Below, piece after piece: positions 9,478-36,767 of a DNA stretch of 40,662 nucleotides. Both the position numbers and the translations under genes were made by a program. The notes under the pieces are model-generated. The model made no database searches. It was not told where the DNA came from and worked only from the letters and a program-made list of their open reading frames with translations. The first letter of the stretch is position 1; each line of letters opens with the position of its first letter. The DNA comes from Enterococcus faecalis 13-SD-W-01 (GTDB lineage Bacteria > Bacillota > Bacilli > Lactobacillales > Enterococcaceae), in the NCBI GenBank assembly GCA_000415185.1, contig KE351606.1:1-40662 (forward strand), written 5' to 3'.

Positions 9478-10536
9478 GTGAAAAAACAAAATGTTCTCAA
9501 TCTAATTAAGTATCATGTTGAAAAAAATGAAGCTGGTTTTAGAAATGAAGCAATTGAAATTGCCAAAAACTTTGATAGTCGTGGTGATTATCAATTAGCT
9601 GAATACATTATGGGGCTGATTGCTGAAGCCAACCTATACACTCCACAGGCTACTGATTTTGAAAGTGAGTTTTTAAAGCACATTGACATCGCAAATTTAG
9701 GGCCGCTGAACTTGCCTGCAATTATAGCAGAAGATATCAAAGGAATAATTAATGCCGTTAAACATAAAATAGGCATCAATAAATTTCTATTTGAAGGTGC
9801 GCCCGGTAGTGGGAAAACGGAGGCTGCTAAGCATGTGTCTAGATTGTTAGACCGTACACTTTATTATGTGGATTTTGATCACCTAATTGACAGTAAATTA
9901 GGACAAACAAATAAAAATATATCTCAAGTATTCTCAGAAATCAATCGCATACCATATCCAGAAAAAACGGTAATCCTATTCGACGAAATTGACGTAATTG
10001 CTTTGGATAGAATTAACAGTAATGACGTCCGTGAAATGGGCCGTGTCACTTCGAGTATTTTGCGAGAATTTGATCGGTTAACGGAATTAAATACTGAAAT
10101 CGTTTTGATAGCAACAACAAATCTTTTTGATAATTTTGACAAAGCTTTATCACGCAGGTTTGATGCTGTCATCAGCTTTAATCGCTATTCGAAGGACGAC
10201 CTAATTGATATCTCTGAGTACTTCTTCTCAACCTATGCAAAAAATTTCAAAAATATCTCAAAAGATATCAGACTTTTTCGAAAAATTCTAAATAATACTG
10301 AGTCTTTGCCATATCCTGGTGAACTTAATAATGTAATTAAAACATCTCTTGCCTTTAGTGATATTGACAATAGTTATGATTATTTACGGCGACTATATAA
10401 TAATTTAGTTGGAGATCTCAGCACTTTGAGCATTCAAGATCTTCAGCATCAAGGGTTTACAGTGAGGGAAATTGAAAAACTAACTGGAGAATCTAAAAGT
10501 AATGTTTCTAGAAAGCTTAGTGGAGGGGATGAATAG
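9478..10536 (+). CDS. ietA: AAA+ ATPase, IetA-like (antiphage/plasmid-stability pair)
   Basis: 352 residues. AAA+ core: Walker A GAPGSGKT at 107-114, Walker B VILFDEID at 165-172, sensor-1 Asn in ATTN near 215, arginine-finger candidates in ALSRRFD at 226-227. The N-terminal roughly 90 residues are helical. The C-terminal 30 (FTVREIEKLTGESKSNVSRKL) form an HTH-like tail. An AAA ATPase directly coupled to a subtilisin-like protease is the IetA/IetS arrangement, reported first as a stability/incompatibility pair on Ti plasmids and later as an antiphage system. The ATPase probably controls the protease. GTG start with GGAGG upstream; one-base overlap with the next gene. Family sure, system name likely. 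Confidence 0.85.
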   Translation: MKKQNVLNLIKYHVEKNEAGFRNEAIEIAKNFDSRGDYQLAEYIMGLIAEANLYTPQATDFESEFLKHIDIANLGPLNLPAIIAEDIKGIINAVKHKIGINKFLFEGAPGSGKTEAAKHVSRLLDRTLYYVDFDHLIDSKLGQTNKNISQVFSEINRIPYPEKTVILFDEIDVIALDRINSNDVREMGRVTSSILREFDRLTELNTEIVLIATTNLFDNFDKALSRRFDAVISFNRYSKDDLIDISEYFFSTYAKNFKNISKDIRLFRKILNNTESLPYPGELNNVIKTSLAFSDIDNSYDYLRRLYNNLVGDLSTLSIQDLQHQGFTVREIEKLTGESKSNVSRKLSGGDE

Positions 10537-12773
10537 TGTCCAACAACGTACTCGAGTTACGAGGAAACCGATTTGTACAAGCTGCAAAGGTCAATAACAG
10601 ACCAGTACCTAACATGAATAGTAAGAAAACTGTTACCAGCATCGAACTAGACAAACTATCAAAGAAGATTCAAGAGATTAAGAAATTTTGGGCAGGAGAG
10701 CAAAGGCCGTTCAAAGGTGTGTTGGTCAGTGTCCACTATAATAAGATTGCTGCTAAAAGTAACCGAATTAGTGGCTTATTGAAAGCATATGAGTCCAATC
10801 AAGCAATAGTCGGAGCGAAGTTTAACGAGAAAAAAAACAAACATATTATTACTTACTATGTTGAAAATCGCGATCTCGAGAAAACAATCTTGCTTTTAGA
10901 TGAAGCTAGAAAGATTTTGGTATCTTACTTTGATGGCAGAATCGATAAAGCAGGATTTGATAACAATTCTTTCATTAACCGAATACCTTTCAATAAGTAT
11001 GCAATCAGCAAATCAGCATTTAAAGCTGTAATTGGTGATGTCTCATACATCGATGATTTTGAAGTAGAAATGTCCACTGCACAAACAAAGGAGAGCATCA
11101 TCACACTTTATGACACTAAAATGAGTACCCAAAAGTTGTTGAAAGATCTTGGAATTGATATTTTATCTAGTCGAATTATTGACAATCAAACAGTTTTTCT
11201 AAATGAACATGAGTTGGGTCTATTACGTGAGAAAGCGCCATATTTGATTGCCATGGCAACAACTGATCTTTCACAGCTAGCACCATCTGACTTTTCGGAT
11301 TCTTTTGAATCTCAGATGGTCACAATTCCAGAGCCGAGTAATGAACCAACTATTGGTGTTATCGATACGTTGTTTGATAAACGCGTCTATTTTGGTTCTT
11401 GGGTTGATTATCATGACATGGTCAGTGAACATTTTCAAAAAGAAGCGAAAGATTACAATCACGGAACAGCTGTATCGTCATTGATTGTTGACGGTCCACG
11501 ATTGAATCCTTGGCTTGATGACGGATGTGGTCGTTTCAAAGTGCGTCATTTTGGTGTTGCCGCTGGTGGTAATTTTTCTTCATATACAATCATCCGGATG
11601 ATTAAACAGGTGATAGCATCTAATCCTGATATTAAGGTATGGAATATCTCTCTCGGAAGCAATCAAGAAATAAATGATAATTTCATATCAGCAGAAGCAG
11701 CGGTCTTAGACCAAATTCAATTTGAACATGACGTAATTTTTGTAATTGCTGGCACAAATAAACCTTCTCCTGATGTGACTAAAATAGGATCCCCAGCTGA
11801 CTCTATTAATGGTATCGTTGTCAACTCCGTAACGAAAAGCGGGCTATCCACAACTTATACACGCCAAGGAATTGCACTCTCTTTCTTTGCGAAACCTGAC
11901 GTTAGTTATTACGGTGGAAGCAAAGAGGAATTTATTCGAGTCTGCGAGCCGTTAGGAGAATCCAAGGTTGCGGGAACTTCTTTCGCGGCACCTTGGATTG
12001 CAAGAAAACTCTCTTATATGATTGATGTATTGGGAATTAGTCGAGAAATAGCCAAGGCGATGCTTATAGATGCCGCCAAGGGTTGGAATGATAACCCAAC
12101 ACCAGAATATATTGCAGTTTTTGGCCATGGCACTGTGCCAATAAAAATTGACGATATTGTTAAAACACCAGATGATGAAATAAGGTTTTTAGTAACCGAT
12201 ATTAGTGAAAAATGGAACACGTATAACTATAGTTTCCCCATACCATTACACGAGAATAAATATCCTTATATCGCTCGTGCAACTATGTGCTATTTCCCAA
12301 TTTGTAATCGCGCTCAAGGTGTAGATTACACAAATACGGAGTTAAATCTTCACTTTGGCCGTATACAGGATAATGGCAAAATAAAAGATATAAAAGGGGA
12401 TAAACAAAACTCGGATGCATCAGACTACGAAGAAGGCAGTGTCATATTCGAAGCAGAAGCACGAGAAAGCTTTCGAAAATGGGATAATGTTAAATATTTA
12501 GCTGAAAAACCAGGGGGTAGCAAAAGACCTAGAAGGTCCTATTCAAATAAAAACTGGGGGATGGAAATAAAGACCAGTAACCGTCTCGATCCAAAAGATG
12601 GTATTGGGTTGCGTTTCGGAGTCGTAGTCACATTAAAGGAAATTAACGGGATTAATCGAATCGATGAATTTATCAGAAATTGTAACTTGAGCGGTTGGAT
12701 TGTAAATGAACTAGATGTTGCTATTAGACAAGATATCCAGCAAAAGTTGAACGAAGATATTGAGTTTGACTAA
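10536..12773 (+). CDS. ietS: Subtilisin-like (S8) serine protease, IetS-like effector
   Basis: 745 residues with no signal peptide, so intracellular. The catalytic triad is visible: Asp277 in IGVIDTLFD, His309 in DYNHGTAVSS, Ser482 in GTSFAAPW; Asn408 in IAGTNKP is the oxyanion residue. Residues 1-265 form an uncharacterised N-terminal region, and the final 180 residues a beta-rich domain (FPIPLHENKYPYIARATMCYFP). Predicted role: proteolytic effector triggered on infection or on loss of its partner, restrained by the AAA ATPase encoded upstream. Translationally coupled (GTG overlaps the ietA stop). A hairpin with T-run follows at 12911-12932. Confidence 0.85.
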   Translation: MSNNVLELRGNRFVQAAKVNNRPVPNMNSKKTVTSIELDKLSKKIQEIKKFWAGEQRPFKGVLVSVHYNKIAAKSNRISGLLKAYESNQAIVGAKFNEKKNKHIITYYVENRDLEKTILLLDEARKILVSYFDGRIDKAGFDNNSFINRIPFNKYAISKSAFKAVIGDVSYIDDFEVEMSTAQTKESIITLYDTKMSTQKLLKDLGIDILSSRIIDNQTVFLNEHELGLLREKAPYLIAMATTDLSQLAPSDFSDSFESQMVTIPEPSNEPTIGVIDTLFDKRVYFGSWVDYHDMVSEHFQKEAKDYNHGTAVSSLIVDGPRLNPWLDDGCGRFKVRHFGVAAGGNFSSYTIIRMIKQVIASNPDIKVWNISLGSNQEINDNFISAEAAVLDQIQFEHDVIFVIAGTNKPSPDVTKIGSPADSINGIVVNSVTKSGLSTTYTRQGIALSFFAKPDVSYYGGSKEEFIRVCEPLGESKVAGTSFAAPWIARKLSYMIDVLGISREIAKAMLIDAAKGWNDNPTPEYIAVFGHGTVPIKIDDIVKTPDDEIRFLVTDISEKWNTYNYSFPIPLHENKYPYIARATMCYFPICNRAQGVDYTNTELNLHFGRIQDNGKIKDIKGDKQNSDASDYEEGSVIFEAEARESFRKWDNVKYLAEKPGGSKRPRRSYSNKNWGMEIKTSNRLDPKDGIGLRFGVVVTLKEINGINRIDEFIRNCNLSGWIVNELDVAIRQDIQQKLNEDIEFD

Positions 12774-15896: not shown

Positions 15897-16130
15897 ATGT
15901 CGATTAAAGAAAGAAAATTTAGAGAAGTCGGGAATTCAGTAGTATTAACTATTTCGAAAGAGTTTCTTAAAGAAAATGGTTTGCATCCAGGAGACACAGT
16001 TTTCTTGGATGAAGAAAAACTTCGGTCAGCAATTACAAAAAAACAAACTATATCAGATGAAATCGATATAGCAATATCTCAGGCACTAACAGAGTATGAC
16101 TCTACCTTTAGAGAGCTTGTGGACAAATAG
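15897..16130 (+). CDS. AbrB/MazE-fold antitoxin of the Doc pair
   Basis: 77 residues. KERKFREVGNSVVLTISKEFLKENGLHPGDTV is the AbrB/MazE swapped-hairpin domain (GNS motif at 13-15), and an acidic tail (DEIDIAISQALTEYDSTFRELVDK) would cover the toxin. Strong ribosome site GGAGG. The Fic-family toxin starts 2 bases after its stop. Classic Doc partners are Phd-type; here an AbrB-type antitoxin takes that place. Both this antitoxin and the one at 5971 have N-terminal AbrB folds but very different tails. Confidence 0.82.
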   Translation: MSIKERKFREVGNSVVLTISKEFLKENGLHPGDTVFLDEEKLRSAITKKQTISDEIDIAISQALTEYDSTFRELVDK

Positions 16131-16132
16131 TC

Positions 16133-16534
16133 ATGAAATATTTAGGTGCCAAAGATATTATAAAAATGAATGTGATTCAAATAAAAAAATATTCTCCTAA
16201 TGAGCCTATTGGTGTAAAGGATCCTAATGCTTTAGAAATGTGCGTGGGACAACTTAAAACTACTGCTTTTGGCGAAGAAGTTTATCCTTCTGTTTACGAA
16301 AAAGCAGCTCTTTTACTTATACAATTGATAAAGAAACATCCTTTTCATAATGCAAATAAACGTACTGCTTTCTTAGCTACTTTTGTCTTTTTGAAAATCA
16401 ATGGGCAGCTTCTGACTATTAAACAGAAAGATGCTGTTAATTTGGTAGTATATATTGCTACCTATGATAAGGATTTTGATCAACTAAAATATGAAGTTAC
16501 TAATATTGTAAAGATACATACGAAACCCATTTAA
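16133..16534 (+). CDS. doc: Fic-family death-on-curing toxin (Doc)
   Basis: 133 residues. The Fic active-site loop is intact: HPFHNANKRTAF, residues about 64-75, with catalytic His and the Asn-Lys-Arg anchor. Doc-type proteins inactivate elongation factor Tu by phosphorylation; the NANKR form fits Doc better than AMP-transferring Fic (which has D/E-G-N-G-R). Encoded 2 bases after an AbrB-type antitoxin. Sits inside the segment bracketed by the dif-like sites at 14977 and 16621. Confidence 0.87.
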   Translation: MKYLGAKDIIKMNVIQIKKYSPNEPIGVKDPNALEMCVGQLKTTAFGEEVYPSVYEKAALLLIQLIKKHPFHNANKRTAFLATFVFLKINGQLLTIKQKDAVNLVVYIATYDKDFDQLKYEVTNIVKIHTKPI

Positions 16535-17257: not shown

Positions 17258-17640
17258 TCAACCAACGCCTCATTCTTCTAGTTATTCATATTTTAATACA
17301 CTAATTATATACTACAACAAATATTATTTTACTGTTCTATTAAAGATCAGACAATTTATTTACTATCTGATTTTTAATTTGTTATCTTGGGCAGACTCTA
17401 TTAATTTTCAATACCTAATTCTTTCATTAAGCCCTGTAAAGGTCGCGAAATAGGATTGCATATATATGTCTGTTTTATTGACTCTTTCTTTTCGTAAACT
17501 GTCTTCAAATAGGAGTAAGCCTTATTCTATCTTCGCAAATCCTATAGAGAGGTATAAAAATCATGATTTGGTAGCTATTCTATTTTACATAGTTCTGATA
17601 CTTGAAATTTTATCAACATTCATCACATCTTATTTGAGAA
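17258..17640. other. Intergenic stretch with decayed coding traces
   Basis: No intact gene. On the minus strand 17339-17385 resembles the 3' end of the neighbouring lipoprotein gene (GTAGATAGTGAATAAACTGTC versus a matching block with two changes), suggesting a lost tandem copy. A protein-like tail ending RPLQGLMKELGIEN is readable at 17401-17454 on the minus strand but belongs to no gene I recognise. Confidence 0.35.
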
Positions 17641-17770
17641 CCATGCTGTTTTATATAGTTTTCTCCCACAACACTTGTCCTTTCATCTGGTCACACAACT
17701 TGATGAAGTTTACCCTTCAGTGAGTGGATTTCCCCTCACTATTTCGTTGCCAAATCAACGATTTTTTATT
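17641..17770 (-). ncRNA. Candidate guide-RNA scaffold (omega-RNA-like) downstream of the TnpB-like gene
   Basis: Read on the minus strand directly after the stop codon, the segment forms three or four hairpins in a row: CGTTG/CAACG (17745-17760), AGTGAG/CTCACT (17719-17740), TTCATC/GATGAA (17682-17707) and ACAA/TTGT (about 17669-17679). TnpB family proteins use an RNA made from the 3' end of their gene and this downstream region, with the guide at its 3' end. The guide would then lie below about 17668 (minus-strand GGGAGAAAACTATATAAAAC). The scaffold/guide border cannot be fixed by eye. Confidence 0.5.
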
Positions 17771-18967
17771 TTACGTACATCTAACTTCTATTCCATATCT
17801 TTTTCCTTTATTTATTATCTGTTCCTTCAATTGATAATACGCCCACTCACCATAAGTCTTATCTGGTTCAGAAATACAAATGATTGGAGTTTTATTACGA
17901 ATGGCTGTTTGAACGATTTTTGCTGAGCATTGATTGTTATAAGTTTTGACAAAATTACTTTCTCTTTTTTTCATTGCTGTCCATCGATCTTGGTCTAGTT
18001 TCCTTTTTCGACCATGACCACCTTTAGAAAACACACCTCGGCTTTGTTCCCTTGATTTCATTCTTTTAATTTTATTTTTGAAATTACTTATATAGTGGCT
18101 ATCACCAAAAGACAACACCAACTGATCATTAACTAAGCATACTCCGCTACATAGATCTGTAAAATTTACAATCAATTTAAATCCTTCTTTGAATTCAAGT
18201 TCCTGATAACTCTTTTCAAAAGAAATGGTTAGATTTAAAAATAATTTTTTACCGTCAAAAATAAGATTACTTTGATTTAGTTTATAATCCCCATTCATGA
18301 TGCGTTGTAAAGCTATAGCACTATCTCTTGCTTTCCCTGGTTTACTACCCAAGTTTACTTTGAACCTAAAACCTTTAGGTAAAGAAATATAAAATTTATC
18401 AGCTTTATGAATTTTAATATCTCGACCTCTAAAAGACAACAATCCAAATTTACTTCTATTTCTATAGACTCTAGGTGTTCTTTGTCCGGTAATGATTCCG
18501 ATGAAATCATTGCTAAAGTCCTTGCTCGCTTTCATATTTGCAGAATCAGCAAAATAAGCAAAATCAAAATCCATTTTTTTTGCTACATCTCGTGTTCTCG
18601 TTTGACTCTTCAAACCTATAGCTTGGGTTAATATCTCTCTAGCTTCTTTATTTTTAGCTGTTCTCAATTTAGATAATTCTGCTTTTGCTTTCTCTAGCTT
18701 CTTTTCATCAGTTGGATTAGTATATACTAACTTTTTAATCCGATTCTGAATGCTTCGTTTCCTTTCAATAAATCCTTGATCCAGCTCATTGATTGAATCT
18801 TTTATTAGCTCTTCAAACATCAGCTGCTTATATACCATATTTAATGCTTTCACGTATTCTCTACTATTTTTCCAAAAAAATTCAAAGAAAGAATCTCTTT
18901 CCGCTTGAGATCCATAAATATATACTTCTACTTTTTTTGTCATAGTTATCATTGTCAATGCTAGCAC
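17771..18967 (-). CDS. TnpB-like protein with destroyed RuvC site (candidate TldR repressor)
   Basis: 398 residues from GTG 18967; a TTG at 18958 or ATG at 18952 fits the GAGGTG ribosome site better. TnpB features: KSREYVKALNMVY near 33-46, the beta-barrel LSFRGRDIKIHKADKFYISLPK, the GGHGRKRK...RESNFVKTYNNQCSAKIV helix near 316-352, and W..YQLKEQI....YGIEV at the end. RuvC-I, normally GIDLG, reads VNFTDLCSG, so the catalytic Asp is replaced by Thr270 in the best alignment. RuvC-II Glu367 remains (ISEPD). The protein stops right after YGIEVRCT, omitting the zinc finger and RuvC-III Asp. The frame is intact over the full length and no TnpA is nearby. These losses match TldR proteins, nuclease-dead RNA-guided repressors known in enterococci. 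An ordinary decaying TnpB is the alternative. Confidence 0.75.
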   Translation of the reverse strand: MLALTMITMTKKVEVYIYGSQAERDSFFEFFWKNSREYVKALNMVYKQLMFEELIKDSINELDQGFIERKRSIQNRIKKLVYTNPTDEKKLEKAKAELSKLRTAKNKEAREILTQAIGLKSQTRTRDVAKKMDFDFAYFADSANMKASKDFSNDFIGIITGQRTPRVYRNRSKFGLLSFRGRDIKIHKADKFYISLPKGFRFKVNLGSKPGKARDSAIALQRIMNGDYKLNQSNLIFDGKKLFLNLTISFEKSYQELEFKEGFKLIVNFTDLCSGVCLVNDQLVLSFGDSHYISNFKNKIKRMKSREQSRGVFSKGGHGRKRKLDQDRWTAMKKRESNFVKTYNNQCSAKIVQTAIRNKTPIICISEPDKTYGEWAYYQLKEQIINKGKRYGIEVRCT

Positions 18968-19222: not shown

Positions 19223-20253
19223 CTATAATTTAATAAGTTTTTCATATGTTGCATCCCATACATCAAATATGTGATCTATTGAAAAAGAATCAGCAACGCG
19301 GAAGTAAGCTGCCTTAGAATATTGTCTACGTCTTTCTTCAGAATCCATTAAGTATAAAATACCCTCTATGAACTTTTCAACATTTCCTGCATCATACAAA
19401 AGTCCATTTTCATTAGGAATAATCACTCAGGAATTCCACCTGTAAAAGTACTTATATTGGGAACCCCATTAGCCATGGATTCTAATATAGACATAGGTAA
19501 GCCTTCTTTATATGAAGGTAATAAATGAATTGCTGCCTTTTTAAAAAGACTATTAGTATCGGAACTCCATCCATGTATATGAATATTTTTCAAACTATGT
19601 TTTTCAATTAATGATAAGACTTTTACTTTTTCTTCACCACCATCTCCATATAAATGAAATTGGATTTTAGGATTAATTTTCTGCATAGCTTGAGCGATTT
19701 TTAATATATCAAAGCTTCCCTTTCTTCTTCCTATTCTACCAAGTGTAATAATATCTGAGGAAGAAGTATCATAGTGTATATCAGTTGATAATTCTACACC
19801 ATTTGGAATAATTTTAATTGTTGTTTTTGTTAAAGTTGAATAGAATTCTCTCCAAGTCTGATCTAAAGAAACAATCAAATTTGCTTTGTCCATAATAAAA
19901 TGGATATAATATTGTACAATTGTAGTTTGAGAACTATAAAAGGAATCGAATTCTGCTGCATGGAAATGAAAAATTGTTTTAATCCTTTTAGGAGTTAAAA
20001 GTAACAAGATACTTTTTCTAAAAAAACTACCTTTTTCAGCTACATGAAAATGTACAATATCTATATTTTGCTTTTTCAGAGTTTTCCTATAATTAAATAT
20101 TCTACCTAAAAATAAACGATTCTTTTTTTTCCTACGCCATGTATCATACAAATAAAAATCATTTTCCCCCATATATTTTGTAAGGAAATTTTTCACTACT
20201 GTAGCCATTCCACCTTTTTCAACAGGAGAGGGGCCTACAATTAATATATTCAT
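19223..20253 (-). pseudogene. Glycosyltransferase family 4, interrupted by a one-base frameshift
   Basis: GT4 sugar transferase. The N-terminal half (MNILIVGPSPVEKGGMATVV, then VHFHVAEKG) and the nucleotide-sugar half (IIPNGVEL, LGRIGRRKGSFDIL, LYGDGGEE, LLPSYKEGLPMSILESMANGVPNIST) are intact up to GGIPE at 19426. There GAGTGATT replaces an expected GAGGTGATT, so the frame stops. The last 66 residues (VIIPNENGLLY to the end) continue in the next frame. One missing G explains it, either a mutation or an assembly error. Cytoplasmic, probably for a surface polysaccharide; it stands apart from the main cluster. Confidence 0.85.
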
Positions 20254-22326: not shown

Positions 22327-23778
22327 GTGAGTATATTTAATAGAGATGATGAGCGTAAACTACAATTATTGCAATACATTTTAACAAAGAAAAATCATTA
22401 TTGCTCAATCATCGAATTGGAAGTCAGATTTGACCTATCTTACTATTTGGTTCGTACATTGATGGAGGAACTTATTGAGGATGCTCAAAATTCAGATATG
22501 ACAAATAATAAATTCCATATTCAAAAACGAGACAATGGTTATTCATTTGAGGGAGATTATGCACATATTGTTTTATATTTAAATTGGATTTATGGCAAAC
22601 AATCAAAGTTGTTCAAATTTCTCCATGCTACGTTGACCAATCCTTTTTTCAATATACTACAGTTTTCTTCAGACAATTATCTCAGCAGTTCTACTGCATA
22701 TAAATTACGAGCAGATCTGACTACGCTATTAGCTCAATATAATTTAGAATTAGACCATGAGTATAAAATAATTGGAGATGCATTTGTTATTCATCAATTT
22801 TTATACTCTATTTATTTTAAAATCTTTAATTATTTTGAATTTCCATTTAATAGTTTTATAGAAACTGAAGCAAAAAAGCTGGTTTATACAATTGAAAACT
22901 CATTGGATGTACCGCTTTCTAGAAGCGATTTTACTAAGTTATCTCTTTTTTCCGCTATTGTTTTTTTGAGAAAAAATTACTTGCAAGAAGATGATACTAA
23001 AAGTTTTTTTTATAATATTCTTCCATATGATACCTTTCAATCTATTTTCAAAAATACTAAAGAGTTGCATTTGAATGCAGCCCAAGTTGATACTATCTCT
23101 AAAGATTACCAATGCTTTTTAGAGTTTGAACACATCATGCCTTACTCACAGATTGTATTTACCTCTGATATTTATTTAGAGGTAAATAAGTGTACTTCCT
23201 TAATTTTAAAAGAACTCAACTTTCTGAATTTGAAAATCAAAAAAAGAACAGACTATGATTTAGTTTTTTCTACCATAAAAAACTTTATACTTCATAGTAA
23301 GATTATTGAAAAAAATAGAGTAGACTTTTCTTTTCCTGAAATCTATGATTTTTCAAAAAATTATTATTTTGAACGTTTTCTTATTAAGCGGATTCAAGCT
23401 TCATTATCTGCCTTGAATGACATGCTTATTTTCAAGCAAAAAAATTCTCAATTTAGATTAGCCCTATTGCTTAATAAATTGTTGAACTATTTTTATCTAG
23501 AACAACCAATAAAAATACATTTCGATTTAAATTTCAATAAAACAAGTATCTATGAAATAATTGAAAATTTAAAAAAATATTTCTCATTAGACATTGCTCT
23601 TTCATTGTGCGAGTTTTCGGAAGCAGATATTTGTATCAGTGATACACCCTTTTTAGATAAAAAAATCGAAAAAAGTATTGTCTATACCTCACCTTTTATT
23701 ACAGAGACGGAATATAAAAAAATAGCAGATGTCATTATCTCAATTATAGTAGATAAACTTACTTATACACTAGAGTAA
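22327..23778 (+). CDS. Mga/AtxA-type transcriptional regulator A
   Basis: 483 residues. The N-terminus has two winged helices (YILTKKNHYCSIIELEVRFDLSYYLVRTLMEELIED, and SSSTAYKLRADLTTLLAQYNLEL near 119-141) typical of Mga. The middle (residues about 180-370) is a helical PRD-like region; the C-terminal 90 residues resemble an EIIB-like fold (KIHFDLNFNKTSIYEIIENLKKYFSLDIALS). GTG start with AGGAG 10 bases upstream; TATAAT at 22293. Mga proteins control surface and virulence genes in streptococci and enterococci. Its own target is probably the divergent neighbour or the polysaccharide locus (inference). Confidence 0.78.
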   Translation: MSIFNRDDERKLQLLQYILTKKNHYCSIIELEVRFDLSYYLVRTLMEELIEDAQNSDMTNNKFHIQKRDNGYSFEGDYAHIVLYLNWIYGKQSKLFKFLHATLTNPFFNILQFSSDNYLSSSTAYKLRADLTTLLAQYNLELDHEYKIIGDAFVIHQFLYSIYFKIFNYFEFPFNSFIETEAKKLVYTIENSLDVPLSRSDFTKLSLFSAIVFLRKNYLQEDDTKSFFYNILPYDTFQSIFKNTKELHLNAAQVDTISKDYQCFLEFEHIMPYSQIVFTSDIYLEVNKCTSLILKELNFLNLKIKKRTDYDLVFSTIKNFILHSKIIEKNRVDFSFPEIYDFSKNYYFERFLIKRIQASLSALNDMLIFKQKNSQFRLALLLNKLLNYFYLEQPIKIHFDLNFNKTSIYEIIENLKKYFSLDIALSLCEFSEADICISDTPFLDKKIEKSIVYTSPFITETEYKKIADVIISIIVDKLTYTLE

Positions 23779-24992: not shown

Positions 24993-25427
24993 TCATTTCA
25001 AAAAATAAATAGATCTTTCTGATTCTTTAAACTCTCCATATAATAATGTTCCTGACATTACTCTAGCAATTCGAGCAATTTGGCTACTGGAAGAATTATG
25101 GCTACCTCCACCAGATCCATGATGATTATTTAGCACATTTATTTTTTGCCTTTTCTTAGAAAAAGTTTTATGTTTCTCTCTATTTTCTTTTCTATATATT
25201 ATTTTGTATTCTTTACTATCAGAACCAAATACACCAGAGATTATAGATGGAAATGGCTGATCTATCATCCAAACCGTCTCTTCATCATACTTTATTTTAC
25301 TTTCATTCTTTAGTTGGCCACTTACAATAGTCTGTCCAATAAAAGTACTGAGAAAGGTATCAGCATTAAACATCAGCAAACTACAGATTGTACCCACTAT
25401 TATTAGTTTATTTTTCAATTTCAACAT
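24993..25427 (-). CDS. Small exported/membrane-anchored protein of unknown function
   Basis: 144 residues. One N-terminal hydrophobic segment (LIIVGTICSLLMF, residues 8-20) that could be a signal peptide or anchor. Then a charged region and a Gly/Ser/His loop (NNHHGSGGGSHNSSSSQ near 99-115). No known domain. Overlaps the 3' end of the Mga-like gene by 20 bases. ATG sits directly against AAAGG, so the TTG three codons later is a better-spaced start. Not recognised; the operon position suggests a surface role. Confidence 0.55.
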   Translation of the reverse strand: MLKLKNKLIIVGTICSLLMFNADTFLSTFIGQTIVSGQLKNESKIKYDEETVWMIDQPFPSIISGVFGSDSKEYKIIYRKENREKHKTFSKKRQKINVLNNHHGSGGGSHNSSSSQIARIARVMSGTLLYGEFKESERSIYFLK

Positions 25428-26844
25428 CCTTTAACTTAACAATTAAGTTTATTAAATATTCCCAATCATATTCATTCGGTGGATTTTTCCAGATAACTTG
25501 ATGTATATCTAGTTTATAGTTATAATAGTCTGATATATAAATCTGTGTATCTGAACGGATGGTATTACTGATCTCCACATTTAGATTGTAGAGACTTCGT
25601 ATATTTTTAGCTATATAATTGGAATAGGTACGCCCATTTGAAAAATCAACAGTCATATTTATAGGTTTTTCCAATTCTGTTATATCGATCTTATCAATTA
25701 GTTCAAAAATATAATCGTAGTAAATATTTACTTTTGTCTCTTTATCTAATTCTGTCAGTAAACTAGATAATCTTTCTTTTATAAAATTTATCGCAAAAAT
25801 ATGGAAGACATGATAGTTCTCCTGAAAATACGCAATTTGTTCTTCATTGATGAAGGTATTACTAATATTTGTGAAAAATAGTACTTTTTCATGTATCGCA
25901 GTAATGTTATTTTTCATTTTTTTTTCAATTGCTATTTGTTTCTCTGGATTCAATTTCAATATTCTGCTTAATTCGTTAAAAAAAAGTATATTAAGTGTAT
26001 TAAGTGTCTCGTTAGCTGCCAGATTTCTTTCAAAATAATCAGCATCAATAATCCTGTTAATTCTTAGAAATAAATAAAAGTCAGAGATTTCATTTAAAAT
26101 CGTTCCTTCTGGCACATTTAGTTCATTCAAAAAAAATTTTTTTACTTTATAAATACTATCTAGCGAAATATATCCATCAGTCTTATTGCTAAAATGGTGT
26201 TTATTTTGCCTTAAAATAGCAATGCTCAGATAAAATTCTATTTTTGTTCTTTGAGTAAGTGTCAAGTGTATCTTTTCGTTAATTTCTAGAAAGTAAATAA
26301 ACTTTTGACATTTCTGCTGGGTCTCATCATCAAATGGATAGTCGATGCCATTAAAAAAGTAGTAATAGACATTGAAAATAAGTTGCCGAATATTCCCTTC
26401 TTCACCAACTAGCTTATTTTCTTTAATCGTTATACCATATTGTTCAAGGATTTTTTTTACGGAATTTCTTAGATTATATGTTTTGGTCATTCCAAGAAAG
26501 TTTTCTCTACTAAAATCTTTTAATTTTTTATTTTCAAATGTAAGTAGGTCAAACATTTTAGATTTCAGTGTCTGTTTAAAATAATTAGATTTTAGTAATA
26601 GTACATCTTCATTGAGAATATTTATATTTTCAAATTCACCTTCGTTAAATATATAAGGTTCTTTATTCAAATAGATAAAAAAGTCTTCCACAATTTCTAC
26701 AATCAGTTTTGCTGATAAATAATCTGATAACCCAAGATCCTTTTGTAAATCAGCAATAGTTAGTGATCGTTGATTTTGATGAATATATTCAATAATAGCG
26801 ATTTTTTGAGCTTCTACTTGATCTAAAAAAGAAATTGCATTCAT
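25408..26844 (-). CDS. Mga/AtxA-type transcriptional regulator B
   Basis: 478 residues, same architecture as the 22327 gene: N-terminal Mga HTH (IEYIHQNQRSLTIADLQKDLGLSDYLSAKLIVEIVED), second winged helix (TYNLRNSVKKILEQYGITIKEN), central helical PRD-like part, and a C-terminal EIIB-like domain (ITELEKPINMTVDFSNGRTYSNYIAKNIRSLYNLNVEIS). It lies inside the polysaccharide operon between the MucBP protein and the small membrane protein. Probably controls these genes in response to sugar-phosphotransfer signals, as for AtxA/Mga (family knowledge plus inference). Confidence 0.78.
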   Translation of the reverse strand: MNAISFLDQVEAQKIAIIEYIHQNQRSLTIADLQKDLGLSDYLSAKLIVEIVEDFFIYLNKEPYIFNEGEFENINILNEDVLLLKSNYFKQTLKSKMFDLLTFENKKLKDFSRENFLGMTKTYNLRNSVKKILEQYGITIKENKLVGEEGNIRQLIFNVYYYFFNGIDYPFDDETQQKCQKFIYFLEINEKIHLTLTQRTKIEFYLSIAILRQNKHHFSNKTDGYISLDSIYKVKKFFLNELNVPEGTILNEISDFYLFLRINRIIDADYFERNLAANETLNTLNILFFNELSRILKLNPEKQIAIEKKMKNNITAIHEKVLFFTNISNTFINEEQIAYFQENYHVFHIFAINFIKERLSSLLTELDKETKVNIYYDYIFELIDKIDITELEKPINMTVDFSNGRTYSNYIAKNIRSLYNLNVEISNTIRSDTQIYISDYYNYKLDIHQVIWKNPPNEYDWEYLINLIVKLKDVEIEK

Positions 26845-26870: not shown

Positions 26871-28934
26871 CTAATTAAAAATAGTCCTTTTAGGTATATA
26901 TGAATATTTTTCACCAATATTTCCTTGGAAATATTTTGGTGGTGCTATTTCCTTACCACTTTCATCTACAAATTTGATAACTACAGTTCCCGTAGATTTC
27001 TTATAATAAAAAGTAATAAAAGTTGTTTTCTTTTGATAATTTCCCTTGATATTCCCTATAACTTTTACTATATCCATATTTTTCATTCTCTGTTTTGTGG
27101 TAAAATCATACGGATCTCCCACTTGTCCTTTTATTTTTTCATCGTTTTTAATTTTATGACCTTCTTCATCAAAATAATGTATGATTACAGATCCAAATTC
27201 TATTTTTTTATAAACAAAAGTAATCTCCTTATTTTCTGAAGAAAAAACACCTAAATAATTTTTTGGAATATCTTTGATTTCCCAACCATTGATTTTTAGC
27301 GGTTCAACGTGGTAAGAAGTTCCTGTAATACCTGTTATTGTTTTCGACTTTAAAATATTATTCCCATTTTCATCTCTATAAAAAATCCTGATAGTCTCAT
27401 TTTCTGTTTTTGTATTCTTATTTTTTATTTCTACTGAAGCATGATTCTTTTTTGGTTCTTTTTCATAGATGATTTTGATGTTTTGTTTACTTTTAGAAAA
27501 GATGCCTTTACTGTTTGTGGGAGGACTTAATACCTTCCATCCAGTAATTTTTGGCTTGGTTATTTGGTAAGATGTGCCGACCTCCCCTTTAATGGTATTA
27601 CTATTTTTTATTTTCTCGCCATTTTTGTCCACATAATCAATCGTTACTTCTCCAAAAAGTTTTTTTATTGTTACTGAGACAGATTTTTCCGTAGTCAATC
27701 CTTGGCTATTTTCTACAGTATATTTAACGATATCATGATATGTTCCTGGCATATTAGCTACTTGTAATAGATTATGATAATCAACTTTGATCTTTTGATT
27801 GAGATTGCCTTCCTTGGGGTCAGAGGCAGAAACATTTTTCAATAATAATTCCAACAGATTTGTCTTTGCCAGTATTCCTTGATCAAAAGCTTTATTTTCT
27901 GCCTTTATTATAGGAAAAATAGATACTTGATTTGGTGATGCAAACTTACTATGCAAATAAAATATATTCGTTTCTTTTATTGCAGTTGTTTGATTTTGGA
28001 TTTTTACTTGTCCTGATGATTCATATATTTCCTTTAAATCCTCTACAGTAAATATACATTTTATATTATAAGCATGACTTTCTTGGATTCGATTATTACT
28101 TTGTTGAGGTGAATTAAAATCAACAGTAACTTTGATATCCGATGTATTATTATTTTCTATCTTTACAGTATATAAGTTAGGGGGAAGTTCTTCGCTAGTA
28201 TCTAAATCTGTAACTCTTAATTTTTCTTCTTCAAAATGGATGATCGAGTTTGTATGGTTCTTAAGTTCAAGTTTTCCTATATAGTGTTCATCATTTTTCA
28301 AGCTATCTGTATGCCCTCGATTGATATTTATCTGATTACTTATCTCATTTGTAGTATTCGAAAAAATCCCCGTGACATTATCTTCAGCAGTTGGATCTTT
28401 CCCTAAAAATGTTCCTGTGTTGGTTGGCTCGTAACCCCAATAAAGATTTAGCAATCCAAATGTTACGTCCTCATTTACAACTGTGATTTTTTTTATATTA
28501 GGCATGATTACTGTCCTATTACCAGAATTATCTTGATAAAATGACGAGATGCTGTACTCTCCACTCAAAGTTCGAACCCTACTAAATAATGTAAAATTTA
28601 TATTTGCTCGTCCTATTTCTTTTTGTACAATAAGTTCTATTTTATTCTGACTTGGGATAGTGTTTATCTTAAAAAGTGATGCCTCTGCTGAATCTAAATA
28701 TAATGTATTGAAATTGAGCAGTTCGCTAGGGATTTCTAGTACTATTTTGGAACCAGCACGTATACTTTCTTGTTCGTAATTTCTTATACTGATAGCTATC
28801 GGCATTGTATAGTCCAACTGATAGACTTCTTGAGGTAGCGTTACTGAAAAGTCAAGATTTTCTGCTGTTGCGGTTTTTCCTCCAAAAAAAAGACCCAAAA
28901 AGAGGATCAAAAAAAACAAGTTTTTCTTTCTCAT
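26871..28934 (-). CDS. Secreted MucBP-repeat surface protein lacking a cell-wall anchor
   Basis: 687 residues from ATG 28934 (AGGAG upstream; the longer TTG reading is too close to it). Signal peptide MRKKNLFFLILFLGLFFGG, cleavage near TATA-EN. Residues about 25-350 are a beta-rich region, followed by a short Ig-like segment ending TTEKSVSVTIKK. Then four MucBP repeats (VTIDYVDKNGEKI, IRIFYRDENGNNI, VIIHYFDEEGHKI, VVIKFVDESGKEI) which in related proteins bind mucin or glycans. The fourth repeat breaks off at SYIPKRTIFN with no LPxTG motif or membrane tail, so it looks 3'-truncated or is released. Twenty-six bases before the Mga-like regulator. Confidence 0.82.
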   Translation of the reverse strand: MRKKNLFFLILFLGLFFGGKTATAENLDFSVTLPQEVYQLDYTMPIAISIRNYEQESIRAGSKIVLEIPSELLNFNTLYLDSAEASLFKINTIPSQNKIELIVQKEIGRANINFTLFSRVRTLSGEYSISSFYQDNSGNRTVIMPNIKKITVVNEDVTFGLLNLYWGYEPTNTGTFLGKDPTAEDNVTGIFSNTTNEISNQININRGHTDSLKNDEHYIGKLELKNHTNSIIHFEEEKLRVTDLDTSEELPPNLYTVKIENNNTSDIKVTVDFNSPQQSNNRIQESHAYNIKCIFTVEDLKEIYESSGQVKIQNQTTAIKETNIFYLHSKFASPNQVSIFPIIKAENKAFDQGILAKTNLLELLLKNVSASDPKEGNLNQKIKVDYHNLLQVANMPGTYHDIVKYTVENSQGLTTEKSVSVTIKKLFGEVTIDYVDKNGEKIKNSNTIKGEVGTSYQITKPKITGWKVLSPPTNSKGIFSKSKQNIKIIYEKEPKKNHASVEIKNKNTKTENETIRIFYRDENGNNILKSKTITGITGTSYHVEPLKINGWEIKDIPKNYLGVFSSENKEITFVYKKIEFGSVIIHYFDEEGHKIKNDEKIKGQVGDPYDFTTKQRMKNMDIVKVIGNIKGNYQKKTTFITFYYKKSTGTVVIKFVDESGKEIAPPKYFQGNIGEKYSYIPKRTIFN

Positions 28935-28987
28935 TAAACTACACAACTCCTAAACCACTTTTTGTTAAAACTCGAAGGAAAATCAAT

Positions 28988-29752
28988 TTAAAAAATACCA
29001 AATTTTTTAATCTTTTTAGGAGAATAAATTTCCATCTCTTTATCATTCTCTCTTTGATAGATTATCTTATTTAAATTTTTCATCTCAGCCACACGTTCTG
29101 TACTGATTATTTTTTCCAATTTACTGTAAGCTTCTGTCATTTGGAAGTTTCTATTTTTAAGATTATGGGCATCTGAGGAAACAATATGTGCGAGATTGTT
29201 TTTTACCATTTTTACAGCACACTTTTGTGACTCTTTTCCAAAGTTTCCTCTGATACTTCCAGCAGTTACTTGAACCAATGCACCTAATTGGATGAAGGGA
29301 ATTAAACGATTAGGATCCTTCATAAAATAATTGTTTCTTTCTGGATGTACGATAATTGGGATTTTATTTAATCCTGCTAAAGTATCAAATATCCTTTCAG
29401 AAAATACTGGCACGCTAAAGGTAGGAAACTCAATCAATAGAAATTGTTCCTTATTTCCCCAAAAAACAAGTTTATTTTTTTGGATATCTTCTATCAAATC
29501 AGGTTTGATATGCACTTCTTGCCCTGCTTTTATTTCCAATGGGAGGTCATTTTCTTTTAAAATTACTTCAAATTCTTGAACTGCCTGTAAAATTTCTGTT
29601 TTTGTATTTGGATATACAGAATTATAGTGAGGAGTACATAAAATATGCGTTATTCCTTGCTCTACAGCCGCTCTGGCCAATGCTAAACTTTGATCAATTG
29701 TTCTAGGACCGTCATCTATTCCTGGTAATAAGTGACAGTGAAGATCATACAT
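28988..29752 (-). CDS. cpsB: Mn-dependent PHP-type tyrosine-protein phosphatase (Wzb/CpsB)
   Basis: 254 residues. PHP metal-binding motifs: DLHCHLLPGIDDGP at 3-16, TPHY near 42-45, HPERN near 136-140, SDAHN near 192-196. It dephosphorylates the tyrosine tail of the CpsD kinase and so controls chain assembly. ATG 29752 chosen because AAAGGAG lies 8 bases before it. Unusually placed after wzx instead of next to wzz/wzd as in streptococcal loci. Confidence 0.92.
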   Translation of the reverse strand: MYDLHCHLLPGIDDGPRTIDQSLALARAAVEQGITHILCTPHYNSVYPNTKTEILQAVQEFEVILKENDLPLEIKAGQEVHIKPDLIEDIQKNKLVFWGNKEQFLLIEFPTFSVPVFSERIFDTLAGLNKIPIIVHPERNNYFMKDPNRLIPFIQLGALVQVTAGSIRGNFGKESQKCAVKMVKNNLAHIVSSDAHNLKNRNFQMTEAYSKLEKIISTERVAEMKNLNKIIYQRENDKEMEIYSPKKIKKFGIF

Positions 29753-29780
29753 AAAATTCACTCCTTTGTTTGCTGCTATT

Positions 29781-31205
29781 TTAATAGCGAATAGTACTTC
29801 GAATTTTCTTCAATTGAGTCATAATAGATGCTTTCAATACGAAGAGAAGAAAAAAATAAATCCCTACTCCGCAAATGATTTCCATTAAAAAGGAAATCAA
29901 ATTACCAGCCATCATACTATGTAGCCAGCGAACGATAGCAAACATTAAGATACTGGAGAAAAGATATTTCCAAGTGCCTGCCAGTAACGATTTAAGTGCA
30001 AAGTCCTGTCTCACATAGTAGAATTGGACAAAAGTTACTAGTATTTCAGATATTACGGTCGCATAAGCTGCTCCTACTACGCCCCAGTATTCGATAAAGA
30101 GAATATTTGCTAAAAAGTTGAATAGCGCTCCACAAACTACTGATATCGTAAAATATTTTGTTTGATTCGTCGGAAGCAGATATTGTGTACCTAATACATT
30201 GCTCCATCCAATCCAAATAATGATTTGACTCATGATAATGATAAGATTGCTAGTCTCTTTAAATTCACTACCTAAAAACCATACTGTGAATTTTGGTGCT
30301 ATGGCCATCAAACCAAAGGCTAAGGGGAAACAAATAGCAGAAACAAAATCAAAACTTGTAAACAGATATTGATGGATCTGACTTTTTTGTTTATTGGCAT
30401 GAGCATTTGCAACGCGAGGCAACATAACAGTTCCAGTTGCAGTGACAATTGCAAGAATGATTTTTATCATTTTGTTTGCATTTTCATATTCTCCGACACT
30501 AGATATATCTGAAAAAATACCTAACATCGTTTTATTCAAGACAAGATAGATTTGGGTAGCAATTTGTGGGATGAATAGTCCTATTGTCGGAAGCAAATGT
30601 TGCCGCAGATTTAACTGTAAGAATAGCGGTTTAGAAATGTATTTTTTTAAAGAAACCCATAAAGTTAGATTACCTAAAAGCGAGGAAGCACCAAGAATCA
30701 ATATATAGATCCCTAAATCATTTTTATCTTTGACTAAAGTAAATACGGCTATCAAAGAAAGAAATTTAATTACTGTATTCCTTGTTACTGTTTTTTTAAA
30801 TTCTTCTAGTCCCATAAAAAACCATGAAATATCTAACATGGCTGCCAATAGTCCTAAAGATTGATAGAAGTAATATACTTGGTATCTATTGACATACATC
30901 ATAAAGAATATAAATACCGTATAAGAAATACTTAGACAAATGATTCGAATGAATAATAATTCCCAAAACAATCGACTTAACTTTTCTTTTTTATCTCTTA
31001 CATAAGCTACTGCTCTATTTCCATACATATTTATGCCTATACTACCGAATAGAAGAAAATATTGAATAATAGAATCTGTGTACGCATTTATCCCCATACC
31101 TTCTCTACCTAATACTCTGGAAATATATGGAACTGTTATAATGGGAAGCAACATTGTGAATAGTTGATATCCTACGTTATATAAATAATTTTTTATTAGT
31201 TTCAT
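29781..31205 (-). CDS. wzx: Polysaccharide flippase (Wzx)
   Basis: 474 residues, about 12-14 membrane segments, MATE/MVF-like polysaccharide transporter (YNVGYQLFTMLLPIITVPYISRVLGREGMG at the N-terminus is a typical Wzx start). It flips the undecaprenol-linked repeat unit to the outside for polymerisation by Wzy. Nineteen bases upstream of cpsB's ribosome region; 42 bases after cpsD. Confidence 0.92.
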   Translation of the reverse strand: MKLIKNYLYNVGYQLFTMLLPIITVPYISRVLGREGMGINAYTDSIIQYFLLFGSIGINMYGNRAVAYVRDKKEKLSRLFWELLFIRIICLSISYTVFIFFMMYVNRYQVYYFYQSLGLLAAMLDISWFFMGLEEFKKTVTRNTVIKFLSLIAVFTLVKDKNDLGIYILILGASSLLGNLTLWVSLKKYISKPLFLQLNLRQHLLPTIGLFIPQIATQIYLVLNKTMLGIFSDISSVGEYENANKMIKIILAIVTATGTVMLPRVANAHANKQKSQIHQYLFTSFDFVSAICFPLAFGLMAIAPKFTVWFLGSEFKETSNLIIIMSQIIIWIGWSNVLGTQYLLPTNQTKYFTISVVCGALFNFLANILFIEYWGVVGAAYATVISEILVTFVQFYYVRQDFALKSLLAGTWKYLFSSILMFAIVRWLHSMMAGNLISFLMEIICGVGIYFFLLFVLKASIMTQLKKIRSTIRY

Positions 31206-31247
31206 GTCCTACGAAGAATTGATATCCTTCTCTCCTTACAAATAGAT

Positions 31248-31937
31248 TTAGTAATAATATCCCTCATATACATTATCTTCCACACCATTGTATATCGCAC
31301 CAAGTATGTTTACATTTGTTAACTCTAGTACTCCTTTTGCATTAATCAATTGCTCTTTATTTGTGACGTTCTCTCTTACTACTAACAAAACACCATCTAT
31401 TTTTGTAGAAAGAATCGAACTATCTGGTATACCAAATAATGGTGGTGTATCAAAAAAGACGTAATCATATAAATAAGAAACTTCTTTTATAAATTGTTCC
31501 ATTTTTTTCGAAGAAAGCAGATCTGATGGGTTGACTGGCTTGATACCGCTAGTTATAACATCAAGATTTTTGATCGTACTTTTTTGGATGATCGAATCTA
31601 AAGCTAAGTTATCTCTTAGATAAGAACTAAATCCATCAAAATTTTCCATTCCAAAAGTTAAGTGAACAGTTGGTCTTCTCATATCTGCATCAATGAGCAA
31701 GACTTTTTTATCATTTTGAGCAAAAGTTACTGCCAAATTTGCGCAAATAGTAGATTTTCCTTCTCCAGGACCTGCGGAAGAAACAACAATTGTTTTTATT
31801 TTTTGATTCATTTCAGAGACATAAGCAACATTCATTCTGATCATTCGATATTGTTCTGAAATAATTGAAGAAGAATCTGCAGCTGCCAGCGATATAGCTT
31901 TCGGCTTACTTAAAGCTCTTTTTTTCTTGAACATCAT
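31248..31937 (-). CDS. cpsD: BY-type tyrosine kinase (CpsD/Wzd)
   Basis: 229 residues from ATG 31937, which has AAGGAGAG 8 bases upstream; the longer open frame lies inside wzz. Walker A SSAGPGEGKSTICANL, Walker A' VLLIDADMRRP, Walker B YDYVFFDTPP, and a C-terminal tyrosine cluster (Y in VYEGYYY) that is autophosphorylated. Works with the membrane Wzz encoded just before it and is reset by CpsB. Start moved because the 26 extra codons are Lys-rich and share sequence with the wzz tail. Confidence 0.92.
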   Translation of the reverse strand: MMFKKKRALSKPKAISLAAADSSSIISEQYRMIRMNVAYVSEMNQKIKTIVVSSAGPGEGKSTICANLAVTFAQNDKKVLLIDADMRRPTVHLTFGMENFDGFSSYLRDNLALDSIIQKSTIKNLDVITSGIKPVNPSDLLSSKKMEQFIKEVSYLYDYVFFDTPPLFGIPDSSILSTKIDGVLLVVRENVTNKEQLINAKGVLELTNVNILGAIYNGVEDNVYEGYYY

Positions 31938-31941
31938 CGAC

Positions 31942-32694
31942 TTATCTCTCCTTACGTTTTCTTTTTCTACTTTTTGTTTTTTTTCTAGTGGCAATATTTT
32001 CTTTTTCACTTGCATCTAATTTAGGAATCACACCAAAAATAGGATAACCAAGCTGTTCTTCTATGAATGCTTTATCTTTTACAGTTGTTTCCATCAAATC
32101 ACGGATCAAAGCAAAAGCAATTCCAATAATAAATCCAACCGCAAGACCAATTAAAAGAAATAATTTCTTATTTGGTGCTGCAGGAACATCACTTTTTTTG
32201 GCATTAGAGATGATGGCAATCGATTCAACATTCATGTATTTTTCGGCAACCTCTTTGAAAACATTCGTTGTCGTATTTGCGAGTTCTGCCGATAGTTCTG
32301 CATCTGAAGTCATTGCTTGAATAGAAAACATTTGAGAATTATTTGCTTGATTAACTGTTAGAGCTTTTTTTATAGAAGCTGTATCTAAAGTGATGTTATG
32401 CTCGTTTTTCATTTTTTTCTGTACACTGTCAGCTACTAGGTCCCCTTGTATCAAGTCTTTGAAAGTAGTAATCAACTGGATATTCATATTGACATTACTA
32501 ATATTTACAGTACTCACATCCCCTTTTGGAAGAGTAACCAATAGTTGTGTTTGTGAACTATACGAAGGTTGGATGATCTTGACGGCAACGATAAAAGAAA
32601 CAGCTGCTCCCATAGCTGTTAGAATGATTATTCCGAGAATATTTTTTTTTAATATTTCTAAAATATCTGTTATTTTTAAAGTTTTTTTCCTCAC
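31942..32694 (-). CDS. cpsC: Chain-length regulator / kinase activator (CpsC/Wzz)
   Basis: 250 residues. Membrane segment 1 near 18-38 (ILGIIILTAMGAAVSFIVAVKI), an outside region, membrane segment 2 near 173-195 (KLFLLIGLAVGFIIGIAFAL), and a basic cytoplasmic tail (RKKTKSRKRKRKER). Typical Gram-positive Wzz that binds and activates CpsD. Four bases separate it from the kinase gene. Confidence 0.9.
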   Translation of the reverse strand: MRKKTLKITDILEILKKNILGIIILTAMGAAVSFIVAVKIIQPSYSSQTQLLVTLPKGDVSTVNISNVNMNIQLITTFKDLIQGDLVADSVQKKMKNEHNITLDTASIKKALTVNQANNSQMFSIQAMTSDAELSAELANTTTNVFKEVAEKYMNVESIAIISNAKKSDVPAAPNKKLFLLIGLAVGFIIGIAFALIRDLMETTVKDKAFIEEQLGYPIFGVIPKLDASEKENIATRKKTKSRKRKRKER

Positions 32695-32756
32695 TTTTTT
32701 CTCCTTAGTTTTACTCTGATAAGTAAATCAAAATTAGTTTAATAAAGTAACGTATT

Positions 32757-33521
32757 CTATATTGTATTGTTAGTTGAACTCTTTTTATTATAGGAAATTT
32801 TTTCTTTCAGAACTTTAAAAATAAATACTGTATTTCCCACAAAATATCTTTTGAATAATCTACGAGGTTCTTGAATCACTCGAAACAGCCATTCAATGTT
32901 CATCACCTGCATCCAAACCGGCGCACGCTTTATCTTTCCTGATAACACATCAAAACTACCGCCCACACCCATGAATACTGAATTGACTCCTTTTTTCATA
33001 AAATAATCAATCAAATATTCTTTCACGGGTGAAGTAATTCCGATAAAAACAATCGCGGGGGCAAGTGACTTTAGTTCATCCGTGATCGTTTCCCATTCTG
33101 CTTTATCAAAATAACCATCTCTATATCCTGAAATAACTAAATCTTCGTACTGAACCTTTAATTTATTGACCATCGTAGAAACAACTTCTTGTTTTGCTCC
33201 TAAAAAATAAACTGGATAACCTTTTTGATTGCTTAATGTTAACAAAGATTGCATTAAATCAATACCCGCTACACGCTCTGGTAATGGTTTATTCAAAATT
33301 TTTGATGCTAAAACGACTGAAGCCCCATCAGCATTGATGATCTCTGCTGATTTTACAATATTATCGTAGTACTCATTTCTATCTAGCTCATTTATTTTAT
33401 CCGCATTTATACCTAATAGATGCGTGGGTACTCGTCCACAAATGCGTTCTTCCACAACCTGAACAGTTTCTGACATAGTCAAACTATCAATTTCTATACC
33501 AAAAAATAACTTTTTCACCAT
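32757..33521 (-). CDS. WecG/TagA/CpsF-family glycosyltransferase
   Basis: 254 residues. Family signature INADGASVVLASKILNKPLPERVAGIDLMQSLL near 77-110 and IFIGITSPVKEYLI later. These enzymes (GT26) usually transfer ManNAc or a related N-acetyl or uronic sugar to the lipid-linked first sugar. ATG start with GGAGAG upstream, 13 bases after the priming transferase stop. The second sugar of the repeat unit is probably its product (inference). Confidence 0.88.
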   Translation of the reverse strand: MVKKLFFGIEIDSLTMSETVQVVEERICGRVPTHLLGINADKINELDRNEYYDNIVKSAEIINADGASVVLASKILNKPLPERVAGIDLMQSLLTLSNQKGYPVYFLGAKQEVVSTMVNKLKVQYEDLVISGYRDGYFDKAEWETITDELKSLAPAIVFIGITSPVKEYLIDYFMKKGVNSVFMGVGGSFDVLSGKIKRAPVWMQVMNIEWLFRVIQEPRRLFKRYFVGNTVFIFKVLKEKISYNKKSSTNNTI

Positions 33522-33534
33522 TTATATCTCTCCT

Positions 33535-34350: not shown

Positions 34351-34369
34351 TTTTATCTATTCTTTTAAA

Positions 34370-36750: not shown

Positions 36751-36767
36751 CTATGTGGCCTCTCTCA

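Follow-up and report, generated by a model that had tools for sequence, protein, structure and literature searches.

What is a protein that resembles an RNA-guided nuclease and lacks its catalytic parts doing on a contig with a capsule locus? The protein is encoded on the minus strand at 17771–18967 of a 40,662-nucleotide contig (KE351606.1) of Enterococcus faecalis 13-SD-W-01, which was analysed over its whole length and is called the window below. The contig is plasmid-like, as it carries at 280–2043 on the plus strand a Rep3-type initiator (280–1155) and ParA (1231–2043). A preliminary description, made from the letters of the window, had proposed a candidate TldR: a TnpB-like protein with a lost nuclease and an intact frame, under selection for DNA binding and expected to have a new target.

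Sequence profiles and predicted fold place the protein in another family. The PADLOC V-F model PDLC01699 matches residues 8–396 (E = 4.7e-45; Cas12u3 was also named), and a single-sequence search of the PDB is topped by 8hr5 and 9nzp, the former over residues 70–396 (E = 2e-17). When an AlphaFold model (mean pLDDT 75, pTM 0.44) is used for a fold search, CnCas12f1 (8hr5) comes first (E = 9e-22), with RhCas12f1 (9nzp) at rank 20, the first TnpB at rank 22 (E = 7e-9) and Cas12m2 at rank 32. No Cas12m model appeared among the PADLOC matches, and homology to Cas12m (V-M) is not supported. PDB 8HR5 is the entry named CnCas12f1 in the accessible text of PMC13186708. The NCBIfam model guided_TnpB scores weakly (E = 8.9e-9, 35 bits versus a cut-off of 100). 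One sequence profile includes intact relatives, and its scores are therefore not those of the window protein alone. Homology to Cas12f extends over the full effector by profile, by PDB sequence and by fold, and the protein is a nuclease-dead Cas12f of type V-F, V-U3 branch. Of the TldR proposal, a nuclease-dead protein of the TnpB/Cas12 kind stands, and the family assignment does not: profile, fold and a CRISPR array with plasmid-matching spacers give Cas12f, and a TldR/TnpB identity is disfavoured by scores in which Cas12f models and structures outrank TnpB, the phylogeny beside them being a tree of 15 sequences only.

The open reading frame (ORF) encodes 398 amino acids from a GTG start with no internal stop, as the preliminary description had read it. 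The annotated start of several homologues is an ATG that lies 24 bases inside this frame, which corresponds to 18943 here and may also be the start of the window protein; other annotations differ. In the alignment, RuvC-I reads VNFTDLCSG in the window protein and GVDLG in intact relatives, with the catalytic aspartate aligned to phenylalanine. An aspartate stands two residues on (FTDL; conserved in Enterococcus, asparagine in E. nangangensis), so a shifted alignment is possible at the RuvC-I site alone. The RuvC-II region is absent through a 7-residue gap, and the chain stops at YGIEVRCT, short of RuvC-III and the zinc finger; the losses first noticed at RuvC-I and at the C terminus are thus borne out. 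With neither the RuvC D/E/D residues nor the zinc finger of Cas12f intact, the protein is an inactivated Cas12f variant and not a nuclease; a dead RuvC in a conserved frame is also what a TldR would have. No IS200-type TnpA was found by Pfam among 31 window ORFs of at least 120 amino acids and one of 77, in line with the earlier reading.

The lesion is not confined to the window copy. The alignment holds 8 Enterococcus rows, namely the window and seven plasmid copies, of which one has a further stop; in all of them, as in E. nangangensis, the RuvC-I aspartate is missing, RuvC-II falls in the gap and the chain ends at the same point. By contrast, a protein of Bacillus arachidis, 29% identical, keeps GVDLG, the glutamate, ADYN and the zinc finger. 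In the 15-sequence tree, the dead copies and E. nangangensis form one clade apart from six intact relatives. A lone truncation of the window copy, which the preliminary description had named as a possible refutation, is ruled out by the common lesion and the single dead clade.

Directly downstream of the effector, at 17566–17765, lies a guide-RNA scaffold with the remnant of an array, which the first reading had missed; its parts are all on the minus strand. The tracr-like scaffold (17668–17765), with three predicted hairpins, is fused to CRISPR repeat 1 (17632–17667), whose 5′ end is altered and whose border is approximate. The guide, a 30-nt spacer matching wzz/cpsC (17602–17631), and the decayed CRISPR repeat 2 (17566–17601), 66 bases from repeat 1, complete the array, which consists of two altered repeats and one guide. 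This is a reduced form of the adjoining array and tracr-like scaffold by which Cas12f is recognized. The junction of repeat 1 and scaffold is 4 bases shorter in the window than in homologues. The leader end has a role in spacer acquisition, and the altered leader–repeat junction of the window copy probably no longer accepts new spacers. An Rfam search returned a single match, below threshold (E = 0.41), and free RNA folds did not return the repeat hairpin consistently.

The window copy is one member of a plasmid family. The effector was found by tblastn in 113 plasmid records, 108 of them of Enterococcus, and it occurs on many plasmids of E. faecium, those of pHT type and the linear pELF plasmids among them. 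The accessible parts of PMC9071438 and PMC11656645 describe V-F as enriched on plasmids; the accessible part of the pELF paper PMC12691693 mentions anti-CRISPR genes only. Of 15 genomes of the genus, only the window's own (G000) contains the effector, so conservation of the wzz guide was not seen among them, and single-protein scans of viral and genome contigs gave no effector match. From the tblastn records, 18 Enterococcus plasmid loci were fetched. All have the scaffold with at least one 36-nt repeat and 17 have at least two repeats, E. mundtii having a single intact one; array and scaffold are also present in E. nangangensis. Across the family, 36-nt repeats with 30-nt spacers follow a conserved scaffold. 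The effector is broken in four of the 18 loci (L007, L010, L011 and L013: a stop, an IS66 insertion, several pieces and IS1216). Eight fetched loci (L004, L005, L009, L014, L017, L018, L021 and L022) have a second scaffold, which stands with its repeats downstream of the first; second-array spacers of pHTbeta, CP063551.1 and NZ_CP041255.1 match one transfer-region gene of sister plasmids. On the plasmid of Bacillus arachidis (L012), an intact Cas12f-like gene, repeats and a separate tracr-like stretch with an anti-repeat, recognized by inspection, stand downstream of position 4422, which is likely an active V-U3 system.

Spacers vary close to the scaffold and are common to the arrays at the distal end, the pattern that insertion of new spacers beside the scaffold would leave, and one locus (L019) has the array of another (L008) plus one new first spacer, a leader-side gain. 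The scaffold–repeat border is TTGAG/GTTTTAGA, for instance in L005 and L008, and the border is GAG/GTTTTAGA, with a 66-base spacing, in the type II-A arrays that stand at four cas1 loci of the genus. These matching borders and the spacing make it plausible that spacers are acquired through the II-A adaptation machinery of the host. Type II Cas1 scored above the cut-off in 8 of the 15 genus genomes and was not found in G000. Neither cas1 nor cas2 was found in the annotated 1.5–6 kb flanks of the plasmid loci, where gene tables are incomplete, or among the scanned window ORFs, and the family is thus not an autonomous adaptive CRISPR system with its own cas1 and cas2.

What do the spacers target? 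Seven single spacers were searched against plasmids, and three had matches beyond arrays. L005 spacer 1 matched 504 plasmid records, with a target between repA and traE (placed in one record); L006 spacer 2 matched 421, with a target in a class A sortase gene (named in 48 of 60 records among the matches listed); and L017 spacer 2 matched 686, with a target downstream of repA; all three counts include array carriers. In a local scan of 42 distinct 30-mers that follow repeats, some of them array trailers, three more spacers match an 878-aa gene, adjoining a conjugative coupling-protein gene, in the transfer region of sister pHT-type plasmids. Reversed-spacer controls gave no match of at least 24/30 in 508 kb and one of 23/30 in pTT39_p1. 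Finally, L008 spacer 2 and L009 spacer 3, which fit one degenerate pattern, match one gene in each of two genus genomes, with CCG upstream in G009 and CTG in G013; this gene has a weak winged-helix match only, and the 36 plasmid records matched by L008 spacer 2 are presumed array carriers.

Other spacers gave nothing comparable. L004 spacer 1, L008 spacer 1 and L017 spacer 1 matched carrier or presumed array copies on plasmids and no foreign target, with one weak extra match in each of two of these searches. L014 spacer 1 matched six plasmid records and no foreign target, the L007 spacer had no target in the 15 genus genomes, and most of the 42 30-mers had none in the sequences searched. Matches of one array trailer to another, or inside L011, were not counted. 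A phage search with one natural array returned four records of Prevotella phages, whose 79% match covers sequence behind the first array and not a spacer, and two spacers scanned for exact occurrence in viral contigs gave no match.

Counting the wzz guide, the L008/L009 pair, the three single spacers and the three transfer-gene spacers, there are eight independent protospacers, and all eight have a 5′-CCD PAM in at least one target: CCA (wzz), CCG (in G009; CTG in G013), CCG, CCT, CCA, CCA, CCA and CCA. At a CCD frequency of 0.027, eight such PAMs would arise by chance with a naive probability of 0.027 to the eighth power, a figure that is too small since 'at least one target' was counted. Such a 5′ PAM beside the protospacers is as expected for Cas12f. 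Among six in-gene protospacers, four have the same sense as the wzz guide and two are antisense. In all three cases in which a carrier plasmid has a like site of its own, that site is altered in PAM or sequence. Two of them have CTA, one with a single mismatch and the other with a full match; the third, that of spacer 7 of pHTbeta, has CCA and matches at 27/30, its three mismatches being at 12, 15 and 27.

The guide in the window matches a resident gene, wzz/cpsC at G000:C52:159430–159459, in 27 of 30 positions, with the first 19 perfect and a 5′ PAM of CCA; the expectation of a new target is thereby answered. This wzz, on a 371-kb contig, also holds the only other exact 18-nt match to the guide in the genome. 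Nine other near matches were found, of which eight were readable, at 17–21/30 and none with CCD. The mismatches at 20, 26 and 29 all fall at third codon positions, so the likeness of the guide is to a wzz gene. The genome has four Wzz homologues, of which the guide hits one, standing after a LytR-CpsA-Psr gene and before the CpsD and CpsB genes. The Wzz/CpsC of the window itself (31942–32694, minus strand) is 43% identical to the targeted Wzz, and its site has CCG upstream and matches the guide in 19 of 30 positions, including 14 of the first 19. The site lies at codon 148 of 259; the guide has the sequence of the coding strand and is thus predicted to pair with the template strand. Dead Cas12a blocks elongation best when its guide pairs with the template strand. 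Elsewhere in the genus, wzz of two other genomes matches the guide at 28/30 (CAA upstream, no PAM) and at 27/30 (CCA), so the spacer may come from a relative. Targets inside ORFs, those of fliC, are also described for CsrA-associated TldRs in the accessible text of PMC13418256.

We consider it probable that the dead Cas12f of a capsule plasmid silences the capsule operon of its host under RNA guidance. In this reading the locus is a minimal type V-F CRISPR system with a Cas12f that has lost its nuclease. On enterococcal plasmids, Cas12f with array-derived crRNAs would bind DNA at 5′-CCD PAMs and hinder rival plasmids without cutting. In the window copy, the effector is kept and the structured scaffold is joined to a single guide, which the changed leader–repeat border would lock in place. 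Base-pairing of that guide to the template strand within resident wzz/cpsC, near the head of the host capsule operon, would hold dead Cas12f there and so stop transcription of wzz and of the genes that follow. With the resident operon blocked and the plasmid wzz spared, the plasmid-borne capsule locus would dominate. The sequence itself shows the identity of the protein, its lost active-site parts, the array, the PAM, the match to the target, the spared paralogue and the constraint; from these we infer expression of the RNA, binding, silencing and a capsule switch. Weighing against silencing are the three mismatches of the guide, the position of the site within an ORF, the wzz matches in other genomes, the decayed repeat 2, the occurrence of the effector in one genus genome, the broken effectors of other loci, the mixed covariation of the scaffold and the pTM of the model. 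With somewhat less assurance, we also favour the wider reading that a one-locked-guide dead Cas12f, of anti-plasmid ancestry, switches the capsule of the host while sparing that of the plasmid, as an independent, CRISPR-derived counterpart of the flagellin-remodelling TldRs of phages.

The strongest alternative, which we regard as unlikely although well short of negligible, is that the window copy is a relic of a decaying plasmid-competition system, its last spacer taken by chance from a gene of a rival capsule plasmid or of a past host and now without a role. An array down to two repeats, the second decayed, with an altered leader–repeat junction, would fit such a relic, as would the imperfect match to the present host and the broken effectors in four of the 18 fetched loci. 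The self match tolerated by pHTbeta at 27/30 with a PAM indicates that a 27/30 site can be a spared one, and slightly lowers the odds of host-capsule silencing, although two of the pHTbeta mismatches are at 12 and 15 and those of the window guide start at 20. Against decay, the effector frame is intact, with dN/dS of 0.094–0.136 to five homologues, a figure that spans the whole lineage and not the window branch. This agrees with the selection, fit for DNA binding, that the preliminary description had supposed, and is far from the value near 1 that it had set as a refutation. The first 19 guide positions and the PAM also fit the present host, and the paralogue on the contig is spared.

Pair changes in the scaffold also weigh against decay. 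In a structure derived from the window's own fold, five pairs are changed on both sides, three in E. nangangensis and two, compensatory and in helix 3, in the window copy only. As many both-side changes arose in 1 of 500 shuffles, and slid controls gave 0–2. Compared with shuffles, the covariation score was reached in 7/500, the number of cells paired in 26/500 and that of cells changed on both sides in 72/500; further pair types did not exceed shuffles (479/500) and lend no support. Helices 4 and 5, of the repeat hairpin, pair in 70 and 85% of cells. The covariation is mixed, and the dN/dS near 0.1 with the two compensatory scaffold changes supports a function at the sequence level.

Far less likely is that the family destroys its targets by recruiting another nuclease, the window guide being tolerated only through its three mismatches. 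Targets in rep-flanking and transfer regions would suit such plasmid elimination, but no partner gene is common to the neighbourhoods annotated on pHT-type, pELF and E. mundtii plasmids, whose gene tables are incomplete, and a resident target that has a PAM and matches perfectly over its first 19 nt would carry a risk. Least credible is a TldR proper, a TnpB-derived dead repressor with a transposon-derived guide, for which the missing RuvC parts and zinc finger, the weak guided_TnpB score and the analogy to fliC-TldRs that silence a host surface-structure gene for an element-borne isoform (accessible text of PMC13418256) can be cited, and against which stand profile and fold, and a CRISPR array whose spacers change and have protospacers on plasmids.

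Silencing of the host capsule by a dead Cas12f would join features of several known systems. CnCas12f1 and RhCas12f1 are closest to the window protein by sequence, CnCas12f1 also by fold, and both use a scaffold and repeat guide as the enterococcal family does; they keep the RuvC acids and zinc finger and cut DNA, whereas the enterococcal family has lost these parts and the C terminus. Another dead Cas12f, PDB 9n9c (dCas12f), is the second-best fold match and more distant by sequence than CnCas12f1 (E = 1.6e-7 versus 2e-17); it reportedly has a role in RNA-guided transcription. Type IV-A effectors are multi-subunit and class 1, unlike the single Cas12f of the window. Type IV-A plasmid CRISPR systems are similar in silencing other plasmids and in using host adaptation machinery, according to the accessible part of PMC11656645. 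The NCCD PAM of RhCas12f1, as given in the accessible text of PMC10090079, agrees with the CCD of the enterococcal family. Cas12m (V-M) is likewise nuclease-inactive, plasmid-enriched and acting by binding, and inactivated effectors of V-C and V-M block by binding (accessible parts of PMC11656645 and PMC12669027, the latter for V-C and V-M), but Cas12m2 is a low-ranking fold match. Similar in logic are TldRs, especially the fliC-associated ones of prophages, with which a mobile element shuts off a gene for a host surface structure and brings in its own version (PMC13418256); they are TnpB-derived, whereas the window system is Cas12f-derived, has CRISPR repeats and concerns the capsule, and the words 'CRISPR array' are absent from the accessible text of that paper.

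In open-licence PMC literature we found no report of dead Cas12f on Enterococcus plasmids or of RNA-guided capsule silencing. If the proposed silencing holds, this CRISPR effector would be on its way from a weapon against plasmids to a regulator of genes, having reached the logic of TldR from another ancestor, and it would offer a testable mechanism for enterococcal capsule replacement and hence for phage and immune recognition. Across the family, spacers against rep-flanking and transfer regions of other plasmids could help to explain plasmid coexistence.

The capsule locus of the window (28988–40656, minus strand) runs to the contig end. It encodes CpsB, a flippase, CpsD, CpsC, a WecG/TagA-type transferase and an initiating sugar transferase, together with GT11, Stealth, UDP-galactopyranose mutase and a hexapeptide transferase; the ORFs at 37883–38893 and 39451–40656 have no Pfam match, and the latter is polymerase-like by inspection only. 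Adjoining the locus are a MucBP-repeat surface protein (26871–28946) and two Mga-type regulators (22327–23778 and 25408–26844). A Glycos_transf_1 glycosyltransferase at 19223–20253 is split over two overlapping frames (276 and 67 amino acids) and is probably frameshifted. At 9478–12773, an AAA ATPase is followed on the same strand by an adjacent subtilase-family protease, which may form a two-gene defence-like pair, and at 15897–16534 a small antitoxin-like protein with no Pfam match precedes a Fic/Doc protein, a probable toxin–antitoxin pair.
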